DNA of 34,039 nt from Oscillospiraceae bacterium (lineage in GTDB: Bacteria; Bacillota_A; Clostridia; Oscillospirales; Oscillospiraceae). The position numbers and the translations under genes are program-made. Below, one piece after another: positions 23,265 through 24,621 of this stretch. Numbering within the stretch: the first letter of the stretch is position 1; each line of letters opens with the position of its first letter. The notes beneath the pieces were generated by a model. The model ran no database searches. It was given only the letters and a program-made list of their open reading frames with translations, and was not told the origin of the DNA. The DNA lies in NCBI GenBank assembly GCA_017939025.1, contig JAGBAI010000067.1, forward strand, positions 1 through 34,039, written 5' to 3'.

Positions 23265-23292
23265 AAAAAAGTGCGCAGCCGAAGCTACGCAC
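23265..23292 (-). terminator. Terminator/attenuator with UUCG tetraloop
   Basis: Minus strand GTGCGTAGC-TTCG-GCTGCGCAC followed by TTTTTT: a 9-bp stem (one G-U) closed by a C(UUCG)G tetraloop. It lies between the only visible promoter and the lipoprotein start codon. Confidence 0.88.
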
Positions 23293-23421
23293 CGAAAAAC
23301 GCATGGCTCCATTGCCGCGACGCAATTCTTTGGAAACCCACAGGGAACGCAAAGCGGAGAATGCGTTTTTGCCAAAGCAAAAAGCACATTCCCTGTGTTT
23401 TTCCTTATTGAATTGCGTCGC
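23265..23421 (-). ncRNA. Structured leader or small RNA upstream of the lipoprotein pair
   Basis: From the predicted start at 23421 the minus transcript begins with GCGACGCAATTC (23421-23410), which pairs perfectly with GAATTGCGTCGC (23328-23317). Inside, 16 nt at 23404-23389 pair with 23347-23332 (two mismatches forming a 2x2 internal loop). The apical part holds two hairpins: TTTTTGC-TTTG-GCAAAAA and ACGCA-N10-TGCGT. It ends in a terminator (23292-23265). The T-tract is 27 nt before the lipoprotein ATG. It could be an attenuator for that operon or a free RNA of about 157 nt. No T-box motif or known riboswitch core was recognised. Confidence 0.6.
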
Positions 23422-23427
23422 AAATTT

Positions 23428-23456
23428 ATGTTATCACACCTATCCGGAATATTCAA
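23428..23456 (-). promoter_or_regulatory. Extended -10 promoter of the leader RNA / lipoprotein operon
   Basis: -35 TTGAAT (23451-23456), 17-bp spacer, -10 TAACAT (23428-23433) preceded by TGA, an extended -10. The expected start (23421) coincides with the first base of the leader's closing stem. Confidence 0.6.
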
Positions 23457-23574: not shown

Positions 23575-24621
23575 TCAGGCACGCATGGCGCGCTTTCTGG
23601 CAATGTTGATGGGGCCCTCCTGCATGTTGTTGATCCAGGCAAGGCTCTTGCCGGCACCGTAGGCGGTGCAGGAATCGGGATCGTCTGCCAGGACACAGGC
23701 GATACCGGTGCGCTCCATCAGCAGCATGTCCATGCCCCACAGCTGACCACAGCCGCCGGTGATGGTAATGCCGTTTTCAGAGATATCGGACACCAGTTCC
23801 GGACTGGTCTGTTCCAGAACCGCCAGCACCTCGTCAGCAATCTGACGGGCAGGACGGCGGAGAACTTCGTAAATCTCCGTCGAGGTCAGGGTGACCATCT
23901 TGGGCATACCGGTCTTGAAGTCACGGCCCTTGACATTCATGCTGCGCTCTTCGTCCCGGGGATAGACCTGACCGATCTGGATTTTAATATTCTCCGCGGT
24001 GACCTGGCCGATGACCACACCGTGCTGACGGCGGACGTACCGGGCGATCATCTCATCAAAATAGTTGCCCGCGATCTTCAGAGAGGAGGAAACGGAAACG
24101 CCGTTCATGCTCAAAACTGCGATATCCGTCGTACCGCCGCCCACATCCACCACCAGATGTCCGCTGGCTCCCCGGATGTCCAAACCAGCACCCAGGCCGG
24201 CAGCCAGAGGCTCTTCGATCAGGAATACACGGCGGGCACCGGCTTCGATGGCAGCGTTGATGACAGACCGCTCCTCGACCTCAGAAACACCGGAAGGAAC
24301 AGAGATGACCACTCTGGGCTTGGGGGTGAACAGGCCTGCCTTGGTGGCAGTCTTGAACATTTCCTGGAGCATCTTGACCGTCATCTCATGGTCAGATACG
24401 ATGCCGTCCTTCAACGGGTGCATAGCTACCACGTTGCCGGGGGTACGGCCCAGCATGTTCCGGGCAGCAGCACCCACCTGCAGGATCTTGCCGGTATTCT
24501 TGTCCACCGCCACAACGGAAGGCTCCCGGACGACCAGGCCCTTGCCGTCGGCATAGATCAGAACATTGGATGTACCCAGGTCCACGCCCAGGTCATTGCT
24601 AAACATAGAAAACAGAGACAT
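23575..24621 (-). CDS. mreB: Rod-shape determining protein MreB
   Basis: Actin-like ATPase (348 aa) that forms membrane-bound filaments guiding lateral wall synthesis. Seen: an N-terminal hydrophobic/amphipathic start (MSLFSMF), the phosphate-1 motif DLGVDLGTSNVLIY, the VSEVEERSVINAAIEAGARR block, the phosphate-2 motif VDVGGGTTDIAV, and the adenosine motif ITGGCGQLWGMD. In the last, the usual third Gly-like position is Cys, a mild deviation. Neither mreC nor mreD follows; a terminator comes right after. It is the third gene of a recD2-comF-mreB operon, 9 bp after comF. It could be an Mbl- or MreBH-like paralogue, which sequence alone does not settle. Confidence 0.94.
   Translation of the reverse strand: MSLFSMFSNDLGVDLGTSNVLIYADGKGLVVREPSVVAVDKNTGKILQVGAAARNMLGRTPGNVVAMHPLKDGIVSDHEMTVKMLQEMFKTATKAGLFTPKPRVVISVPSGVSEVEERSVINAAIEAGARRVFLIEEPLAAGLGAGLDIRGASGHLVVDVGGGTTDIAVLSMNGVSVSSSLKIAGNYFDEMIARYVRRQHGVVIGQVTAENIKIQIGQVYPRDEERSMNVKGRDFKTGMPKMVTLTSTEIYEVLRRPARQIADEVLAVLEQTSPELVSDISENGITITGGCGQLWGMDMLLMERTGIACVLADDPDSCTAYGAGKSLAWINNMQEGPINIARKRAMRA

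Follow-up and report, generated by a model that had tools for sequence, protein, structure and literature searches.

Positions 23421-23265 (minus strand) of a 34,039-nt stretch of DNA from an Oscillospiraceae bacterium, here referred to as the window, hold a 157-nt unit of promoter, leader and terminator which probably acts in cis as a transcription attenuator operating by strand exchange, and which would represent a riboswitch-like leader class absent from Rfam 15. Comparison of the sequences of many copies shows the alternative pairings, their overlap, a fixed promoter and a position in cis, and the copies make up a real, conserved, cis-acting RNA family that is best read as a new orphan class of riboswitch-like attenuators. 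Among the three options offered in the initial annotation of this DNA, a new cis-regulatory RNA is favoured by the present analysis, and a stand-alone sRNA and a dispersed repeat are disfavoured; the antiterminator (A:B), the pseudoknot (P:A) and the size of the family had been missed.

The leader locus and its parts

The genes around the leader are ordered recD2, a comF-like gene, mreB, the leader and the lipoprotein pair. The promoter (23456-23428, minus strand) is read from the sequence as a -35 element TTGAAT (23456-23451), a 17-nt spacer and an extended -10 element TGA-TAACAT (23436-23428). Its register is conserved: of 140 copies, 130 have TGnTAnnnT at one register (-11 from the first base of the model) and 107 have TTGn at -31. 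The start predicted from this promoter, at about 23421, falls on the first base of the closing stem. The case for promoter and terminator is carried by this conservation and not by a simple consensus scan, in which the window promoter was not listed and the single terminator-like site in the window was no excess over shuffled sequences (mean 0.8). The 164-nt stretch 23425-23262 folds at -76.6 kcal/mol compared with -46.5 ± 4.0 kcal/mol for 200 dinucleotide shuffles (z -7.5, none of the 200 as low), and the leader RNA from predicted start to the end of the T-run (23421-23265) scores 150.8 bits with the covariance model, the window being one of the eight sequences from which that model was built.

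The closing helix S1 joins S1-5' (23421-23410) to S1-3' (23328-23317), with 12 pairs in the MFE structure and compensatory changes in all 11 counted pairs. Near the start of the segment following S1-5', ATA is found in 121 of 140 copies as conserved unpaired bases at the S1/S2 junction. H5 (23397-23379) has two possible partners, namely S2-3' (23350-23339), the 3' strand of the upper stem, and P (AAAAACGCAUUCUCC, 23370-23356). P takes in the apical hairpin on its 3' side together with the bases that follow, typically AAAAACGCAUGCUC, and is complementary to A (GGAGCCAUGCGUUUUU, 23310-23295; typically GGAGCUGUGCGUUUUU), situated just 3' of the closing stem. A is complementary also to B (23292-23284), so that it may pair with P as a pseudoknot or with B as an antiterminator, and B itself serves both as the 5' arm of the terminator and as the 3' arm of the antiterminator. 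The 3' arm and tail of the terminator, found in the sequence, are C (23279-23271) and the T-run (23270-23265), and the UUCG-loop terminator as a whole (23293-23270) has compensatory changes in 9 of 9 counted pairs. The linker L, GGCAAU (23316-23311), is similar to a portion of S1-5', and S1-3' may pair with it. The 12-bp closing stem, the inner stems and the UUCG-capped terminator had all been described in the initial annotation and are upheld here, and the covarying pairs in relatives that it named as a check were found in copies of the leader family. A larger subtype of about 200-217 nt was observed in L313, L317, L355, L370, L371 and L381, and in L313 P and A are complementary over 14 bases.

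The first gene behind the leader (23238-22315, minus strand) encodes a 307-aa lipoprotein-like protein with TPR-like repeats and a lipobox read from the sequence; its ATG is separated from the T-run by 26 nt, close behind it as previously noted. The second gene (22318-21419, minus strand) overlaps the first by 4 bp and encodes a 299-aa lipoprotein-like protein with no Pfam match. Neither lipoprotein had a tblastn relative among 80 recD2 loci (E <= 1e-4), and the sole tblastn relative of the first among the non-viral loci examined is in L313, a leader copy from another genome with such lipoprotein genes behind it. The nearest recD2 relatives of the window are 84% identical in L001 and 81% identical in L003 (Candidatus Faecousia), and together with the gene order they put the window within Oscillospiraceae. 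The leader was absent from all 80 recD2-neighbourhood loci when searched by blastn and nhmmer, and the covariance model gave no match there at E <= 0.01; leader homologues in the same genomes sit at other places. In L056, a close relative with an MreB 96.5% identical (compared with window 23575-24621), the site after mreB is taken up by a different lipoprotein-like ORF, with no leader.

Covariation of the alternative pairings

The alternative pairings were assessed by a swap test, in which native duplex energies were compared with those of partners exchanged between copies, a procedure that leaves some relatedness among sequences. For set 1 (98 copies aligned, one antisense match dropped, 92 non-redundant sequences tested) z was -25.1 for S1, -19.5 for B:C, -11.5 for P:A, -7.8 for A:B, -14.7 for H5:P and -28.4 for H5:S2-3', and for each of these six pairings the native value was reached by none of 2000 permutations. 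The comparison pairs P:B, P:C, A:C, H5:A and P:S1-3' gave z between -0.7 and +1.7, and S2-3':A, a pair outside the model, was weakly non-null (z -2.4). Set 2 (n = 42 after two antisense rows of 44 were dropped; not dereplicated) gave z -14.1 for S1, -10.3 for B:C, -9.4 for P:A, -3.7 for A:B, -7.8 for H5:P and -15.6 for H5:S2-3', with four controls between -1.6 and +1.0. Set 3 (44 copies from two further genomes, not dereplicated and including near-identical copies common to both genomes) gave z -16.8 for S1, -13.2 for B:C, -9.1 for P:A, -6.6 for A:B and -7.4 for H5:P; its controls A:C and H5:A stood at -0.4 and +1.5, P:B was not null at -3.1, and the mean for H5:S2-3' was left unused because one row yielded no duplex.

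The limits of S1 and B:C came from a model fitted to these two helices, whereas those of P:A and A:B did not. P was placed by its A-run in set 1 and by local hairpin energy in sets 2 and 3, in neither case by fit to A, and the H5:P values of sets 2 and 3 are therefore partly selected. The placement was made by hand in four set 1 copies (L287, L303, L307 and L318), and P is visibly misplaced in at least one set 2 row (L355) that was kept. The weakest of the main pairings was A:B, for which 22 of 42 natives in set 2 beat their own median swap. Both B:C and A:B nevertheless covary, the latter more weakly, and a mutually exclusive terminator and antiterminator are thus found in the family.

Column counts over 33 pairs in set 1, which include one antisense row (in A2), gave standard pairs in 95.7% of cells versus 84.3% after shuffling, and 367 cells changed on both sides versus 101.5; structures slid along the alignment were 29-55% paired. 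The first block of P:A was 96.8% paired, and its nine pairs comprised three with two-sided change, five with one-sided change and one with none; at each of two columns, 9 sequences had both bases exchanged to give U-A or A-U. The second block was 88.6% paired, with a last, misaligned pair at 31%.

The RCAA motif of S1-5' recurs in L. Pairing of S1-3' with L was better between native than between swapped partners, by pair counts in sets 1 and 2 (z 8.1 and 6.2, respectively) and weakly by energies in set 3 (z -2.9). On the window this pairing is far weaker than S1 (-5.6 versus -16.6 kcal/mol). P1 is a switching helix in many riboswitches, and the S1-3':L pairing suggests that S1 may be a switching helix of the same kind.

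Distribution of the leader family

The covariance model was built from eight copies, two of them from the centre genome G018, which is included in all of the group draws. Matches were found in 64 of 300 genomes drawn at family level at E <= 0.1 (61 at E <= 0.001), in 101 of 295 at order level (E <= 0.001) and in 97 of 391 at class level (E <= 1e-4). At phylum level the single match among 398 genomes was G018 itself, a count that seems at odds with the class-level figure unless the phylum draw spans many classes. Copy numbers per genome in these draws are lower bounds, 7-9 candidates having been scored per genome. Eight genomes chosen for their many copies, with up to 150 candidates scored in each, held 8, 9, 10, 10, 14, 16, 24 and 27 matches (E <= 1e-4). 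For 75 of the 80 recD2 loci the source genomes were searched in two batches, with matches in 10 of 50 and 10 of 25 (E <= 0.001). One cultured carrier is Oscillibacter valericigenes An860, in whose genome (G179) the copy L244 lies. A DNA search of 25 recD2-locus genomes found homologues at 72-76% identity in G018, G014, G006 and G025, that of G025 matching over the 3' three quarters only, and the shorter 3' matches from the same search were further copies, as the covariance model later showed.

Complete copies in tandem were observed in L262, L322, L432, L433, L435 and L437 and in G515:C7, G1359:C33 and G1261:C80, with three in a row in G452:C48; in L262 the downstream copy has its own promoter.

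No Rfam 15 family reached its gathering score in the window. The leader region had three sub-threshold matches at E <= 10, which were taken as chance; none is a T-box, riboswitch or 6S RNA, in keeping with the earlier statement that no such core could be recognised. A cmscan of 20 other leader loci (56.6 kb) returned just two tRNAs above gathering score, both true tRNAs in flanking sequence, and weaker matches there were likewise taken as chance. Judged by Rfam 15 and the open-access literature, in which a description of the family was not found, it is apparently undescribed. A motif of this family might have been picked up in the prediction of structured RNAs from human microbiomes (PMC8040213), whose main text, as distinct from its supplementary motif lists, contains none of the words 'lipoprotein', 'Ruminococcaceae' and 'Faecalibacterium'.

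Proteins encoded behind the leader

ORFs were sought on the same strand alone; the flank was too short in 2 of 140 copies, and no ORF was present in 4 of the other 138. The resulting 134 ORFs, in which one tandem pair counts a gene twice and the ORF of L286 is doubtful, start within 60 nt in 114 cases. By a crude pattern of our own for signal peptides, signal-like N-termini were seen in 66 of the 134 downstream proteins versus 180 of 1314 recD2-locus ORFs (Fisher p 5e-20). Lipobox-like N-termini were likewise more common (25 of 134 versus 34 of 1314, p 4e-12), as were proteins of 80 aa or less (33 of 134 versus 153 of 1314, p 1e-4). The most frequent Pfam families among 132 of the proteins, the duplicate and the doubtful ORF being omitted, were LRR_5 (11), AMP-binding (6), zinc ribbon (6) and SLH (5). 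The targets are rich in secreted proteins, lipoproteins and LRR or S-layer proteins, and no single pathway emerges from them.

In the genomes G1277 and G1243 an ORF was called behind 37 of 44 copies, 27 of them within 60 nt, and about two thirds of the proteins begin, by eye, like secreted proteins, with LRR_5 in the one scanned for L430. Seven encode proteins of 79-84 aa with a weak N-terminal resemblance to MraZ or MazE, which stayed under the Pfam cut-off in both examples scanned. No ORF was called behind the remaining 7 of 44 copies, a count that goes against the cis reading.

Several downstream proteins recur. A protein of about 50-65 aa (MPDYEKLYH and variants) is encoded behind L237, L250, L282, L291, L298, L302, L309, L320 and others, and had no Pfam match in the example scanned (L237). 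The same holds for a second small protein (FKDILFDLINESDALD and variants), behind L268, L283, L292, L304 and L318 (L304 scanned). In two genomes the leader and such a small gene lie directly upstream of dnaA (L295, 763-2073) and of mnmE (L298, 585-1943), as identified by Pfam; dnaA and mnmE are often near the replication origin. Six copies (L261, L273, L312, L331, L369 and L371) precede a protein with the N-terminus TG(Y/F)PS(I/V)DKPWLKYY, and these are presumably the six AMP-binding, acyl-CoA ligase-like targets recognised by Pfam.

A model of attenuation by strand exchange

H5, P, A and B each have two partners, and the chain can consequently be paired in two consistent ways. From this we infer an OFF state composed of H5:S2-3', P:A and B:C and an ON state composed of H5:P and A:B. 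Transcription would start at the first base of S1, and the apical hairpin H5:P would form first; once made, S2-3' could capture H5 and thereby free P. A, made just after closure of S1, would then pair either with P, as a pseudoknot across S1, or with B. Where A is taken by P, B would be free for C, the terminator would form and RNA polymerase would stop at 23265. Where P is kept by H5, A would pair with B, no terminator would form and the lipoprotein operon would be transcribed. What tips the balance may be a cellular signal, perhaps an ion or a small molecule, that the genes of a cell-surface regulon have in common.

We infer the order of these events, the geometry of the pseudoknot, the sign and identity of the signal and any role of S1-3':L. 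The order fits the predicted folds of growing window transcripts, in which H5:P appears at 72 nt, H5:S2-3' at 84, A:B at 144 and B:C at 156; A:B is present in the fold of a transcript that stops behind B, and B:C in that of the full-length transcript. The A:B form of the window is about 6 kcal/mol less stable than the B:C form, as calculated with a folding program that cannot score the pseudoknot. With S1 closed and straight the pseudoknot geometry is a real concern, since a linker of about 6 nt should not span the distance to P at the end of the long stem; P:A would therefore require that the RNA bend sharply at the S1/S2 junction or that S1 open.

A small molecule or an ion is put forward tentatively as the signal. 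With the same reserve, one may imagine that the family answers to a global signal not recognised before and makes up a new class of riboswitches. Its promoter-leader cassette, present up to about 27 times in a genome, would then set the cell-surface programme in a large group of gut Clostridia, most of them uncultured, and within the series of strand exchanges the pseudoknot would be a direct anti-antiterminator. The obvious guess for such a regulon, c-di-GMP, is disfavoured as a signal, given that a search of 30 carrier genomes, which are incomplete drafts, showed a GGDEF domain in 11 and none in 19, and Rfam c-di-GMP models matched neither the window nor any of 20 other loci at E <= 0.5. If the attenuator model is true, one RNA switch would be present at many loci in some gut bacteria (27 matches in one draft genome) and the leader would mark a common set of surface LRR proteins, S-layer proteins and lipoproteins. 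The carriers are known here mainly from metagenome assemblies; the leader would provide a concrete handle on how these bacteria change their surface, and it would pose a sharp question as to the intracellular signal behind the switch.

Alternative explanations

The switch might instead be worked by an RNA-binding protein, for instance an antiterminator protein holding H5:P or A:B, and we consider this unlikely yet worth keeping in mind. A large and mixed set of surface-protein targets would suit a dedicated regulator, and the long conserved helices could be protein sites, but the conserved unpaired bases at the S1/S2 junction would suit a ligand pocket as well. Considerably less probable is an unregulated attenuator that lets through a fixed fraction of transcription and keeps expression low or noisy in the absence of any signal. 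Such a device would accord with window states that differ by about 6 kcal/mol when the pseudoknot is left aside and with targets whose pathways point to no ligand; however, the maintenance of several alternative helices by compensatory change is hard to explain without switching.

The position of the leader ahead of genes bears on whether the unit could be a stand-alone, trans-acting sRNA of about 157 nt, 6S-like or antisense, with the nearby gene incidental. Under a strict rule (ATG, ribosome site of four or more bases, within 60 nt of the T-run) a gene start was found behind 103 of 134 copies, compared with 9 of 136 opposite-strand upstream controls and 27 of 378 random downstream points. 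A lax rule gave 112 of 134, 29 of 136 and 137 of 378, respectively, and reliance is placed on the strict rule because of this last figure. The excess of strict gene starts argues that the leader acts in cis, and it is this position that makes a stand-alone sRNA improbable. An sRNA would be consistent with a complete transcription unit having a fixed promoter and a covarying terminator, with a terminated product that would exist on either reading, and with the 7 of 44 copies lacking a called gene; against this, it is not obvious what a simple sRNA would gain from a pseudoknot and an antiterminator that covary, and no 6S match was obtained. Gene starts and compensatory changes together describe a conserved, structured leader just upstream of genes.

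That the leader is a dispersed mobile repeat, its promoter landing ahead of genes, is more improbable still: it is multi-copy (27 matches in one genome), absent by BLAST and covariance model from the 80 recD2-neighbourhood loci and at times in tandem, and three within-genome pairs are 0.97, 0.93 and 0.80 identical, but copies within genomes are overall about as divergent as copies between them (median identity 0.54 over 91 within-genome pairs versus 0.52 over 9639 other pairs), and compensatory changes and the spacing to start codons likewise speak against it. The many identical copies by which the initial annotation would have recognised a mobile repeat are accordingly not seen among the copies compared. 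No viral contig carried the exact motif pair, a result that says little since only 22 of 140 known copies hold that pattern; the matches listed for a 14-base pattern in viral contigs were taken as chance, and a 3.3-kb piece of the window had no near match in plasmids.

Comparison with known systems

The attenuator proposed here shares traits with several known RNAs. T-box RNAs have a long leader with competing antiterminator and terminator, as this leader does, but the T-box reading was rejected in that no T-box model matched, and amino-acid or tRNA-charging genes are not among the target families seen. 6S RNA is a long imperfect hairpin with a closing stem and its own promoter, all of which are found in the leader at a similar length. 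The 6S reading was also rejected: no 6S model matched, and unlike 6S RNA the leader has many copies per genome, an attenuator at its 3' end and a position in cis. The c-di-GMP-I (GEMM) riboswitch is found at several places in a genome, ahead of genes for adhesins and surface proteins, and often includes a terminator. The leader is similarly multi-copy, upstream of surface genes and equipped with a terminator, but differs in having no Rfam match and in that GGDEF was not found in 19 of 30 carriers (drafts).

In the fluoride, ZTP and preQ1 riboswitches an upstream pseudoknot competes with an intrinsic terminator hairpin. For the fluoride riboswitch this is described also in PMC11077080. The upstream pseudoknot predicted for the present leader would likewise compete with an intrinsic terminator. 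Unlike these three, the leader has no Rfam match, the partner in its pseudoknot would be the antiterminator strand itself, over about 12 bp, and further strand exchanges would be linked to it.
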